A DNA stretch of 64,000 nucleotides from Actinomycetes bacterium (GTDB lineage Bacteria > Actinomycetota > Actinomycetes > Nanopelagicales > Nanopelagicaceae). The notes beneath the pieces are model-generated. The model was not told the origin of the DNA, made no database searches, and was given only the letters and a program-made list of their open reading frames with translations. Position 1 is the stretch's first letter, and every line of letters begins with the position of its first letter. Positions 22,528 through 27,609 of the stretch are shown here, one piece after another. The position numbers were made by a program, and so were the translations under genes. The stretch is from assembly GCA_014190015.1 (NCBI GenBank), contig BJFT01000004.1:1-64000 (forward strand), written 5' to 3'.

Positions 22528-22875
22528 ATGAGCACAGAGACAAGCACTACAGCAGGAATCCTTCTTACCGATAACGCGGCGTCAAAGGTTGCCGCACTAT
22601 TGGCGCAAGAAGGGCGCGATGATTTAAATCTTCGCGTTGCCGTACAACCTGGTGGATGCTCTGGCTTGAAATACCAACTCTATTTCGATGATCGTAATCT
22701 CGACGGAGATATTGTCCGCGAATTCGGTAACGTTAAAGTCATAACCGATAAAATGAGCGATCCTTATTTGTCTGGCGCAACAATTGACTTTGTGGACACA
22801 ATTGAGAAGCAAGGCTTCACAATTGATAATCCAAATGCTCAGGGCTCATGCGCCTGTGGCGATTCTTTTAACTAA
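22528..22875 (+). CDS. erpA: Iron-sulfur cluster insertion protein (A-type carrier)
   Basis: GGCSGLKYQL and GSCACGDSF conserved cysteines. Confidence 0.93.
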   Translation: MSTETSTTAGILLTDNAASKVAALLAQEGRDDLNLRVAVQPGGCSGLKYQLYFDDRNLDGDIVREFGNVKVITDKMSDPYLSGATIDFVDTIEKQGFTIDNPNAQGSCACGDSFN

Positions 22876-22900: not shown

Positions 22901-23875
22901 ATGCGAATTGGTGTAGCTGGCTCTGTGGGTCTTGATCATTTAATGACCTTCTCTGGAAAATTCACAGATTCATTAGTGGCTGGTTCTCTAGAAAAAGTCT
23001 CACTTTCATTTTTAGTAGATGATCTAGAAGTGCGCCGCGGTGGATGTGCTGCAAATATCTGCTTCGGAATGGCAATGCTTGGAATCAACCCAATTTTGAT
23101 TGCAGCTGTTGGAAAAGATTGGGCAGATTACGAAGCATGGCTTTCACGTCACGGCGTGGATACATCTCATGTGTTAATTTCAAAAGAGCTATTTACCGCT
23201 CACTTCATGGTCACAACAGATACTGAACTCAATCAGATTGCTTCATTTTTTCCTGGCGCGATGAGCGAGGCAAGAAATATCGAATTAGATCCAATTATGG
23301 ACAAGACAGGAGTACTTGATCTGATTGTTATTTCACCTGATGATCCCGAAGCAATGATGCGACATAGCGAAGTTGCACGGGCACGTGGGATTGCTTTTGC
23401 CGCTGATCCTTCACAGCAGATGGCTCGCATGGAAGGAGAAGAAATCAAAACACTCATTGACGGAGCTGCATATTTATTCATGAATGAATATGAACTGGCA
23501 CTTGCTATTCAAAAAACTGGCTGGAGTGATGCCGAAATTCTCTCACGCGTTAAATATCGAGTTGTTACACAAGGTTCAAAAGGTGCTCGGATTGAATCAA
23601 AAGGTGGCGAACTAATAAAGATCCTCTGCCCGAAAGAGAAAGCCAAAATCGACCCAACGGGTGTTGGTGATTCGTTTCGATCTGGCTTCATAGCAGGTCT
23701 GGCTTGGGGACTATCTCACGAAAGATGTTTACAACTCGGAGCAATGATTGCCACCTACGTGATTGAAACTAAAGGCACCCAGGAGTATAGATTTACATCA
23801 GAACAATTCATCGAACGTTTCAAGAGCGCCTATGGAGATGTGGCATCCTCAGAAATTAGCGCGCATTTAAATTAG
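22901..23875 (+). CDS. PfkB-family carbohydrate kinase
   Basis: GGCAANICFGMAMLG and C-terminal DPTGVGDSFRSGFIAGL. Confidence 0.92.
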   Translation: MRIGVAGSVGLDHLMTFSGKFTDSLVAGSLEKVSLSFLVDDLEVRRGGCAANICFGMAMLGINPILIAAVGKDWADYEAWLSRHGVDTSHVLISKELFTAHFMVTTDTELNQIASFFPGAMSEARNIELDPIMDKTGVLDLIVISPDDPEAMMRHSEVARARGIAFAADPSQQMARMEGEEIKTLIDGAAYLFMNEYELALAIQKTGWSDAEILSRVKYRVVTQGSKGARIESKGGELIKILCPKEKAKIDPTGVGDSFRSGFIAGLAWGLSHERCLQLGAMIATYVIETKGTQEYRFTSEQFIERFKSAYGDVASSEISAHLN

Positions 23876-24078
23876 TTTTTCGTAATGAGAAACTTCTCAT
23901 CTTCAATTTTAGAAAATTTATTTCCTGTCATTCGAGACCAGGCGCTTAAATCAGGTTCCGTGGCTGGATCATCGGAATAGAGAGTTATTTGATCCCCACT
24001 ATTTAAAGTTGAAATTTGTTTTCCAAGTTCAATTATTGGCTGCGGGCAACGCAAGCCACGAGCATCAATGTTAATCAT
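23872..24078 (-). CDS. TusA-family sulfurtransferase
   Basis: Compact 68-aa protein with DARGLRCPQPIIELGK (CPxP motif). Confidence 0.9.
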   Translation of the reverse strand: MINIDARGLRCPQPIIELGKQISTLNSGDQITLYSDDPATEPDLSAWSRMTGNKFSKIEDEKFLITKN

Positions 24079-25142
24079 GCTCGCAAACGCTCCACATTGT
24101 TTTTAACTGATGAAATTAAGCCATCGATTTCAGATTGTGTTGCATCAGGATGAATTGCTATTCGGATGTTTCCATGAGTTAAAACTCCCATTGCCGCCAA
24201 GACGTGGCTGGGTTCCAAGTTATCGGACGTGCACGCAGAACCGGAATCAACACTAAATCCATCACCTTGAATTCCACGTAAGAGTTCTTCGCCATTGCAA
24301 TTCAAAAAAGATGCGCTGAGTAAATGGGGCAGACTGGAATCTAATGAACCCGCAATGTCCACATCTGGGATCTGAGCAAAGGAATCTCGTAGTTGTGAGT
24401 TGAACTTGCGTGCACGCAAATTTGCTTCTTCGACTTCAGATGAAAAATTCTCAATCGCTACAGCACTTGCCAGCAAGAGAGGAAGAGATGCTTCAAAATT
24501 TGGATGGGCTGCATTGAGATGGGGAAGTGGATTGCTCCACTGTGATTTGTCTTTGATGACTAACAATCCAAGTTCACTCGGTCCGTACCAAGAGCGACTA
24601 TCAAAAATTGCCGTTGAATAATTGTTGATGCCTTGGACACGGATACCGCTTGCGGTTGCATCTAGGAAAATTCGGTCTGGATTAACACTACGGATGATTT
24701 CCTCGCACTCTTGGATTACTCCAGTCTCGGCATTAGCCACCGACAGAGCGAGAACTGAGTTGCGTGATTGTTGGTCGGGTGAAATAAGTTTTCCATCTAG
24801 AGCACTTGGTAGAACGTGATGAGAGCTTCGTGAAGCTATTGCAAAAATGTCTTTTCGATCCGTTGCTCCATGAACCAGGGTTAATGATTCTGTAAGTAAT
24901 CCTTGAAGACCCAAGTAGTACCCCAGGGTCATTGAAGAAAATGCAAAGATCGAGTCCACGGGAACTTTAAGTGAGGCTGCTATTGATTCGATAGCTTGGT
25001 TTTTCACCTGGTTGGCTTTAGATCCCGATTGTGAAAGCTTTCTGGGATCTGCCCACCCATTTTCGAAGGCGGCATGGAGAACCTCGAAAGCCTTTGGATG
25101 AAGAGGGCTTTCACTCTGGAAATTTCCTGTGACCCGTACCAC
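24075..25142 (-). CDS. Cysteine desulfurase-family (class V aminotransferase fold) protein lacking the PLP lysine
   Basis: Cys loop SVDSGSACTSDNLEPSHVLAAMGV is conserved, but the SxHK region reads FDSRSWYGPSELG. 4-bp overlap with tusA. Confidence 0.85.
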   Translation of the reverse strand: MVRVTGNFQSESPLHPKAFEVLHAAFENGWADPRKLSQSGSKANQVKNQAIESIAASLKVPVDSIFAFSSMTLGYYLGLQGLLTESLTLVHGATDRKDIFAIASRSSHHVLPSALDGKLISPDQQSRNSVLALSVANAETGVIQECEEIIRSVNPDRIFLDATASGIRVQGINNYSTAIFDSRSWYGPSELGLLVIKDKSQWSNPLPHLNAAHPNFEASLPLLLASAVAIENFSSEVEEANLRARKFNSQLRDSFAQIPDVDIAGSLDSSLPHLLSASFLNCNGEELLRGIQGDGFSVDSGSACTSDNLEPSHVLAAMGVLTHGNIRIAIHPDATQSEIDGLISSVKNNVERLRA

Positions 25143-25201
25143 CAGATGAACGCTACTGGCTGGTGAGTGTGTTTTGGAAATGCCCCACTATTCTTAAGCC
25201 T

Positions 25202-25954
25202 ATGTCCGCACGTATAAAGAGAGTTCTATCCCTAGCGGGGGTGCTGGTCCCGTCAACACTGTTTTTAACTAGTTGTTCAGAAGTCTCTGGACTTGGTTTT
25301 GATAAAGGCGTTAGCAGCGTTAACGATCAATCTCTTTCATTGTGGCAAGGTGCCTGGATTGCAGCAGGCGTTGTTGGCGTAATTACATTGATTCTTATTT
25401 TGTGGCCGGCATTTTTTCACCGCCTTAAGAAAGATTCACCGGAGTTTCCAAAACAAACGCAGTACAACGTTCCAGTAGAAATTCTTTACACAGTAATTCC
25501 ATTCCTTATCGTGGCCGTTCTTTTCGTCTATACCTTGAGAGCCCAAACAGAGATCACTGCCAAAACAACTGGCCCAGCGCATGAAATTTCTGTTGAAGGA
25601 ATTCAATGGTCATGGCAATTCGGATATGCAGAAGCCGGCCCTGATGCAGTAGTTACAGGAACTCCTGCGCAACCACCAACTTTGTATTTGCCACAAGGCG
25701 AAAAGGTTCGATTCACAATCACATCCAACGACGTTGTTCATGGTTTCTGGATTCCAGCTTTTATGATTCAAATGCAAAATCTTCCGGGAGTCACCAACAA
25801 ATTAGAGTTCACAGCTAACAAATTAGGAACATATCCGGGTCGCTGCAATATTTTGTGCGGGCGAAACCACACTCAAATGATTTTTACGGTCAAAGTTGTA
25901 ACTCCATCTGAATACCAGAACTACTTAGAAACCCTGAAGGTGAGCGCAGCATGA
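25202..25954 (+). CDS. ctaC: Cytochrome c oxidase subunit II
   Basis: Signal/lipobox LTSC, two TMs, CuA-type [12 protein letters not shown]. Start set at MSARIKR. Confidence 0.95.
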
Positions 25955-27609
25955 CAACTTTTGCAGAGCGTCCAGCACTGACTCTTCCAACGCAGGATTT
26001 GCAACCAACGCGAAAAGGAAATGCTTTCGTTAAGTGGGTAACTACTACAGACCATAAGCGCATCGGTTACTTGTATCTCTTTACTACTTTTGCATGGTTT
26101 CTAATCGCTGGACTTCTTGCACTTATATTGCGTTCAGAGTTAGCACGACCTGGTCTGCAGTTCTTGAGTAACGAGCAGTACAACCAAATTTTCACAATGC
26201 ACGGAACAATCATGTTGCTGATGTTCGCAACTCCGTTATTCGTTGGTTTTGCCAACGTCATCATGCCTCTTCAAATTGGCGCAGCTGACGTAGCATTTCC
26301 GCGCTTAAACATGCTTTCTTACTGGCTATATCTATTTTCAGGAATCATGGTTTTCGCAGGATTCATAACTCCTGGAGGCGCCGCCTCCTTTGGTTGGACT
26401 GCGTATGCGCCACTATCAAACTCTGTGTATTCACCAGGCATTGGAGCAGACCTCTGGATTGTTGGTCTTGCTGTCGGTGGTATCGGAACAATTCTGGGCG
26501 CCGTTAACTTCATTACAACTATTTTTACAATGCGTGCACCTGGTATGACAATGTTTAGAATGTCGATCTTCTCTTGGAACGTATTGCTCACTTCGATCTT
26601 GGTTCTTCTAGCGTTCCCACCATTAGCAGTTGCTTTCCTAGGTTTAGAAGCGGATCGTTTATACGGCACTCACTTATTTGATCCAGCTAACGGCGGTGCG
26701 ATGTTGTGGCAGCACCTCTTCTGGTTCTTCGGCCACCCCGAGGTCTATATCTTGGCTCTTCCTTTCTTCGGAATTGCAACAGAGATTTTGCCAGTCTTTA
26801 GTCGCAAACCAATCTTTGGTTATAAGGGCTTAATTGCAGCAACAATTGCAATTGCAGCGCTATCGGTTTCCGTATGGGCGCACCATATGTTCGCAAGCGG
26901 GCAAGTGCTCTTACCGTTCTTCTCGTTCATGACATTTTTAATTGGTGTACCCACCGGTGTTAAATTCTTTAACTGGATCGGCACCATGTGGCGTGGTCAC
27001 GTCACATTTGAAACACCAATGCTCTGGGTTATGGGCTTTCTCGTAACATTCTTATTCGGTGGATTAACTGGAATTATTCTGGCTTCACCTCCACTTGATT
27101 TTGCAGTTTCGGCTTCATACTTCGTAGTTGCGCACTTCCACTATGTTCTATTTGGCACCGTGGTCTTTGCGATGTTTGCCGGATTCTATTTCTGGTGGCC
27201 AAAGATGACAGGTCGCATGCTCAATGAGCGACTAGGAAAAATTCACTTCTGGACTCTCTTCTTCGGTTTCCACCTAACATTCTTAATCCAGCACTGGTTA
27301 GGTATAAAAGGCTTCCCACGCCGTTATGCGGATTACCTGCCTACAGATGGCTTCACCTTCATGAATACCGTTTCAACAATCGGTTCATTCTTATTGGCGC
27401 TTTCAATGATTCCATTCTTCGTAAACGTTTGGATTACTCGCAAGAGCCCACTCGTTAATGTCGATGATCCATGGGGCTACGGCTCATCTTTGGAGTGGGC
27501 AACTTCATGTCCACCTCCACGCCACAACTTCACATCTATGCCACGCATTTCAAGTGAGCGACCAGCATTTGATTTACACCATCCACATATCAAAACTGAA
27601 GGGCACTAA
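25951..27609 (+). CDS. ctaD: Cytochrome c oxidase subunit I
   Basis: [38 protein letters not shown] motifs. Confidence 0.98.

Follow-up and report, generated by a model that had tools for sequence, protein, structure and literature searches.

A TusA-linked IscS/NifS-type protein of Nanopelagicaceae with the persulfide cysteine and without the PLP lysine

Cysteine desulfurases are PLP enzymes that feed sulfur carriers. The window analyzed here, a stretch of 64,000 nucleotides at the start of contig BJFT01000004.1 (assembly GCA_014190015.1), comes from a member of the Nanopelagicaceae, an abundant freshwater family of tiny actinobacteria, and encodes a desulfurase homologue with the persulfide Cys loop and a serine in place of the PLP lysine. 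What can such a protein do? An earlier note on the sequence proposed that desulfurase activity may have been lost and the Cys kept for sulfur relay or scaffolding to the adjacent TusA. The locus comprises the following features.

22528..22875 (+): ErpA-like A-type Fe-S carrier; conserved neighborhood
22901..23875 (+): pfkB-family kinase; conserved neighborhood
23872..24078 (-): TusA-type sulfur carrier, 68 aa; Pfam TusA (PF01206) 62 bits, cut-off 28.6
24046..24048 (-): TusA active Cys11 in RGLRCPQP (CPxP Cys); read from the sequence
24075..25142 (-): Lys-less IscS/NifS-type cysteine desulfurase homologue, 355 aa, GTG start
25163..27609 (+): ctaC and ctaD (terminal oxidase subunits II and I); divergently transcribed neighbors, conserved adjacency

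The TusA start overlaps the stop codon of the desulfurase-like gene by 4 bp. This overlap, the reading frame, the TusA gene and the flanking pfkB, erpA and terminal oxidase genes all lie where the earlier note had placed them. The TusA gene is the sole TusA match in the window's genome, and no IscU/NifU gene was found among the neighbors of the desulfurase-like gene, either in the window's open reading frames or in the class-wide loci. The Pfam Aminotran_5 match of the desulfurase-like protein scored 33.3 bits (cut-off 21.5), and fold-type I homology was established by a full-length profile alignment (residues 4-355) to the IscS structures 4r5f and 4eb5 with an E-value of about 1e-58. None of the NCBIfam equivalog cut-offs was reached, the best being NifS with 92.4 of 530.75 bits. 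The active-site features of the protein are as follows.

24855..24857 (-): Arg96, at the IscS His104 (PLP ring) column; alignment
24732..24734 (-): Asn137, equivalent of IscS Asn154, kept; 86/86 in Nanopelagicaceae, 1p3w alignment
24660..24662 (-): Asp161, equivalent of IscS Asp180, kept; 86/86 in Nanopelagicaceae
24579..24602 (-): remodelled PLP-lysine motif D181-S-R-S184-W-Y-G-P188, against S203-G-H-K206-x-x-G-P; alignment with IscS and Lys-bearing SAHKWGGP orthologues
24591..24593 (-): Ser184 codon TCT, at the IscS K206 column; sequence and alignment
24201..24242 (-): persulfide Cys loop GSACTSDNLEPSHV (residues 301-314); conservation
24231..24233 (-): Cys304 codon TGC, equivalent of IscS Cys328; alignment
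24162..24164 (-): Arg327, equivalent of IscS Arg354, kept; 82/86 in Nanopelagicaceae, 19/19 other Lys-less copies

In a residue-by-residue alignment, D181-S182-R183-S184 stands on S203-G204-H205-K206 of E. coli IscS (1p3w), and alignment to 1p3w and to Archaeoglobus fulgidus 4eb5 places R96 on H104 and A164 on Q183. The Schiff-base lysine of IscS/NifS desulfurases is thus absent, with Ser184 in its place, and the PLP contacts H104, Q183, S203 and H205 are replaced by R96, A164, D181 and R183; the IscS N155 column holds Ala138. The persulfide Cys of the mobile loop is present as Cys304, on IscS C328. The alignment bears out the codon-level reading of the SxHK motif in the earlier note (Lys to Ser, His to Arg), its loss of Gln from DxxQ and its intact Cys loop. 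One detail needs correction: in the upstream GATE segment, described as altered, the phosphate-site residue T76 of IscS is a threonine (Thr72) in the window copy, though it is not conserved in relatives.

The E. coli IscS variants H104Q, D180G, Q183E, K206A and C328S are inactive (PMC9978102), and three of these five positions (H104, Q183, K206) are substituted in the window protein. From these residues we infer that desulfurase activity on cysteine has been lost. PLP-type absorbance persists in the K206A variant (PMC9978102); a missing lysine by itself is therefore no proof of PLP loss. An AlphaFold2 model of the window protein from a seven-row alignment reached a mean pLDDT of 47, and for this reason no structural claim made here rests on it.

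Relatives were gathered by a protein search (60 relatives) and a profile search of 201 Nanopelagicaceae genomes. Many are full-length, and the copies listed have no internal stops. The residue counts depend on MAFFT and HMMER alignments and refer to 86 Nanopelagicaceae copies, 35 Lys-bearing copies of the class and 19 Lys-less copies of other families. When the K, H, Q and C positions were scored across the clade, as the earlier note had proposed, the PLP lysine was absent from all 86 Nanopelagicaceae copies, with Ser in 66, Ala in 12, Thr in a few and single other residues at the K206 column. His at the H104 column was found in 0/86 of them versus 35/35 Lys-bearing copies. The S203 column holds Ser in four and Asp in 74 of the 86, and H205 and T76 are usually lost in Lys-less copies. 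Cys304 was present in all 85 readable Nanopelagicaceae copies (one has a run of N at this column), in 19/19 other Lys-less copies and likewise in 35/35 Lys-bearing copies; no other Cys is conserved. Residues 301-320, within which the Cys loop lies, form the most conserved 20-residue stretch among the Lys-less family copies, with a mean majority-residue fraction of 0.80 (0.36-0.68 elsewhere). Lysine and most phosphate and ring contacts of PLP are gone, while the Cys loop and the equivalents of Asp180, Asn154 and Arg354 are kept under selection.

Pairwise dN/dS values of 0.07-0.15 (Nei-Gojobori, own script) place the gene under purifying selection. A sequencing or assembly error was rejected because the lysine is missing in 86/86 family copies from many separate assemblies. 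A pseudogene was rejected on the dN/dS values, the invariant Cys and the uninterrupted reading frames. That the gene is merely decaying, kept by chance in streamlined genomes, is scarcely credible: one genus clade has indeed lost it (see below), but for the Nanopelagicaceae as a whole decay is refuted by the same selection and the same Cys, the copies listed are free of internal stops, and the gene persists in many genomes of 1-2 Mb.

Could the protein still be a PLP enzyme, using another lysine or base? No replacement lysine conserved over the whole Lys-less set was found in the aligned copies; a conserved lysine of this kind was what the earlier note had named as overturning its reading. The sole candidate is residue 35 (window 25038-25040), which is Lys in 79/86 Nanopelagicaceae copies and Arg in 35/35 Lys-bearing copies; this change within the family, together with the kept Asp180 and Arg354 equivalents, is what can be said for retained PLP chemistry. 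Lys35 is missing, however, from several Lys-less Nanopelagicaceae genera (g29, g32, g33, g36, g38), and none of the 19 other Lys-less copies has it; it is therefore unlikely to be a substitute. A Lys at position 183, beside the old site, occurs in only 11/86 Nanopelagicaceae copies. Replacement lysines at 183 and 35 were both rejected on these distributions, and with H104 and S203 lost, and usually H205 and T76 as well, retained PLP catalysis is very improbable. The Arg-to-Lys switch at residue 35 falls in the N-terminal GWADP segment.

Two records in the set deserve mention on their own account. Locus L039 (JAIYBJ010000029.1) is titled as a Streptomycetaceae MAG; its protein is 87% identical to that of the window and falls inside the Nanopelagicaceae clade, and the title looks wrong. 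Genome G071 has two copies of the locus (L106 and L107, on contigs C47 and C11) with different Lys-less motifs; the L107 protein is very close to a copy of another genus (L104) and may reflect contamination or transfer.

The gene order is class-wide: erpA and pfkB are followed by TusA and the desulfurase-like gene, both transcribed towards pfkB, and these by the divergent ctaC, ctaD and ctaF. Many other actinobacterial families have the canonical SAHKWGGP at the same locus, and the lysine is kept, mostly in this motif, in the 35 aligned Lys-bearing copies. The 19 Lys-less copies of other families have Asp, Ser, Gly, Met or Ala at the column. Lysine also stands at this column in 8/8 relatives read from outside the class, whose orthology is less sure as the stretches fetched held no cta neighbors. 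Its presence in these relatives, in IscS and in SufS makes the Lys state ancestral and its absence derived. No relative of the desulfurase-like protein was found in the viral contigs searched, and a search of open-licence papers yielded no account of the locus for Nanopelagicales or Actinobacteria. It is an uncharacterized desulfurase-TusA locus beside oxidase genes in many Actinomycetota.

The same Lys loss recurred at this one locus in several actinobacterial families. On a tree built from CtaD, CtaC, PfkB and ErpA of the same loci, the state changed between Lys and no Lys at least six times, and the Lys-less lineages were six: f1 (Nanopelagicaceae); f22; f23; f44 with f39 and f32; one genus of f37 with f31; and f29 with f33. 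A single Lys-less clade was rejected on this neighbor-gene tree (log-likelihood 394 lower, p-AU 1.3e-4), as was holding the Lys-less rows outside f1 together, a grouping named after the tree was seen (p-AU 7e-86). The protein's own tree gave seven changes in a quick analysis and a minimum of four in a careful one, recovered f1 as one clade (support 100/98) and is compatible with a single Lys-less clade (p 0.205), so the claim of several losses derives from the neighbor-gene tree. The conserved position at one locus favors loss in place over gene conversion or transfer between lineages. Of the six Lys-less lineages, five (f1; f23; f44/f39/f32; f37/f31; f29) show Asp at the S203 column, as does none of the 35 Lys-bearing copies, and this Ser203-to-Asp change looks like a convergent rebuilding of the old phosphate site; with at least 12 changes at this column, Asp also reverts or varies. 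Recurrent loss of the lysine in related bacteria suggests that the protein has an undescribed second job.

TusA is one candidate partner. Its adjacency or fusion to the gene is class-wide and ancestral and extends to Lys-bearing copies; the two proteins are fused in one open reading frame at L177 (with Lys) and L158 (without Lys). The Cys of TusA is intact wherever an adjacent copy was found, whether or not the partner has the lysine. In a PF01206 search of 44 Nanopelagicaceae genomes, ten had the gene and TusA, 24 had the gene and no TusA above the cut-off, and ten had neither; these counts show existence and not frequency, since the genomes were partly selected for TusA-less loci, and one 17-bit TusA match below the cut-off was left uncounted. 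TusA without the desulfurase-like gene was seen in none of the ten gene-less genomes tested. TusA thus goes with the gene, and the gene does not need TusA.

These data bear on the narrow reading of the earlier note, that the protein exists only to load or hold TusA. The 4-bp overlap, the class-wide adjacency, the two single-frame fusions and the restriction of TusA, among the Nanopelagicaceae genomes tested, to those with the gene are all as this would have it. It is nevertheless quite unlikely: TusA cannot be the only or an essential partner, since 24 tested genomes have the Lys-less gene and no detectable TusA, and dN/dS is 0.08-0.09 for the pairs L018/L020, L026/L027 and L021/L024, from lineages whose loci, as read, have no TusA next to the gene. 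Of what the earlier note proposed, loss of the lysine with retention of the Cys holds across the whole clade and under purifying selection; relay or scaffolding to TusA draws support from the overlap, the ancestral adjacency and the kept TusA Cys, and is contradicted as the sole role by the 24 genomes without TusA.

Ten genomes from the same genus as the window, all nearly complete, are without the desulfurase-like gene (L208-L217). In all ten pfkB joins ctaC directly, erpA is in place and TusA is also cleanly absent, and the nine that were placed on the neighbor-gene tree form one clade. This clean loss makes the gene dispensable in that lineage. A role needed by the oxidase or by erpA was rejected, as the gene-less genomes retain ctaC, ctaD and erpA. 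A two-domain rhodanese (277-345 aa, two PF00581 matches) was found in 11/11 genomes of the genus with the gene and in 0/10 without it. An example lies at G000:C43:3561-4337 and is a possible sulfur donor. Several genomes of other genera have the desulfurase-like gene and no two-domain rhodanese, and because the gene-less genomes are one clade the co-loss counts as one event; the co-occurrence fits a donor role, but as a single evolutionary event.

The window's genome also encodes two desulfurases that keep the lysine. One, a SufS, has a NifU_N (SufU-type) gene and an ABC ATPase gene as neighbors; the other, an IscS, adjoins MnmA. From this gene context, Fe-S assembly and tRNA 2-thiolation appear to have their own desulfurases. 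The IscS/NifS-family fold is dimeric, and with Lys-bearing paralogues in the same genome the protein might pair with SufS or IscS as a pseudo-subunit or tune them as a regulator. Such a role would not call for a conserved Cys, whereas no part of the protein is better conserved than the Cys loop, and there is no genomic link to sufS or iscS; we regard it as improbable.

The explanation towards which we lean, with modest confidence, is that the protein belongs to the IscS/NifS fold as an ancient member, kept by selection, that is not a desulfurase, lacks PLP and works as a sulfur relay through its single conserved Cys. Cys304 would be loaded with sulfane sulfur by another donor, which may be SufS, IscS or a rhodanese (from thiosulfate or mercaptopyruvate), and would hand it to TusA where present and to some other acceptor where TusA is absent. 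The ancestral Lys-bearing enzyme and TusA would have formed a source-and-carrier pair, of which the derived form would keep only the docking-and-carrying half. Counting against this view are the kept Asp180 and Arg354 equivalents, for which a pure sulfur shuttle has no obvious need, the 24 of 34 tested genomes that have the Lys-less gene and show no TusA, the PLP-type absorbance of K206A, and the dispensability of the gene in one genus clade.

The main rival is a metal or Fe-S ligand role, in which Cys304 carries no sulfur and serves as a scaffold, ligating an Fe-S cluster or other metal shared with a partner, for instance ErpA. By profile, the solved structures nearest to the protein are those of A. 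fulgidus IscS2 (4r5f, 4eb5), although 4r5f reads Lys at the column in question. According to PMC7585200, native A. fulgidus IscS has Asp for the lysine and is without desulfurase activity, and it provides a Cys ligand to the [2Fe-2S] cluster on IscU (there citing Marinoni 2012, Yamanaka 2013 and Pagnier 2014, references 46-48). In favor of this role, erpA is also a conserved neighbor, but the locus has no IscU-like gene, erpA and ctaC remain in the genomes that lost the desulfurase-like gene, and the association with TusA is left unexplained, so that a ligand role is on balance unlikely. More broadly, we propose tentatively, and with slightly less than even confidence, an undescribed PLP-independent class of proteins, acting in sulfur relay or as Cys ligands, that arose from a desulfurase on at least six occasions at one syntenic locus, with convergence of Ser203 to Asp and an invariant Cys loop.

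Evolution would thus have stripped out the desulfurase chemistry again and again while leaving the sulfur-carrying loop in place, among others in the whole of the Nanopelagicaceae. The separation of the two halves of the protein offers a natural experiment on a Cys loop acting by itself. For annotation, a near-perfect Cys loop is insufficient to call a cysteine desulfurase.

Among known systems, E. coli IscS (1p3w) shares with the window protein full-length homology, the persulfide loop and the Asp180 and Arg354 equivalents, and differs in K206, H104, Q183, S203 and H205, all lost in the window protein. The Lys-bearing actinobacterial orthologue (as in L177, fused to TusA) has the same synteny and a GSGSSC-type Cys loop, and is set apart by SAHKWGGP, by equivalents of T76 and H104 and, in most cases, by Q183; it too is below the curated NCBIfam cut-offs, and no characterized member was found among the Lys-bearing orthologues of the locus. 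The window TusA is a plain TusA with the CPxP Cys, yet scores 40.6 bits against 78 for the E. coli-type TusA equivalog cut-off. Closest in kind are A. fulgidus IscS2 (4eb5, 4eb7, 4hvk) and Methanosarcina acetivorans IscS1, which like the window protein have the IscS fold, a naturally absent lysine and the Cys loop. Those systems are archaeal and paired with IscU, and A. fulgidus has Asp for the lysine, whereas the window family belongs to an erpA/pfkB/TusA/cta locus and has mostly Ser or Ala; no IscU partner of the A. fulgidus type was found at this locus, the SufU-type gene adjoining SufS instead. In the Nanopelagicaceae H104 and S203 are lost as well, and several families show a recurrence of the lysine loss. 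Archaeal Lys-less IscS, with A. fulgidus as the precedent, is already known; new are the genomic setting and the several inferred origins.
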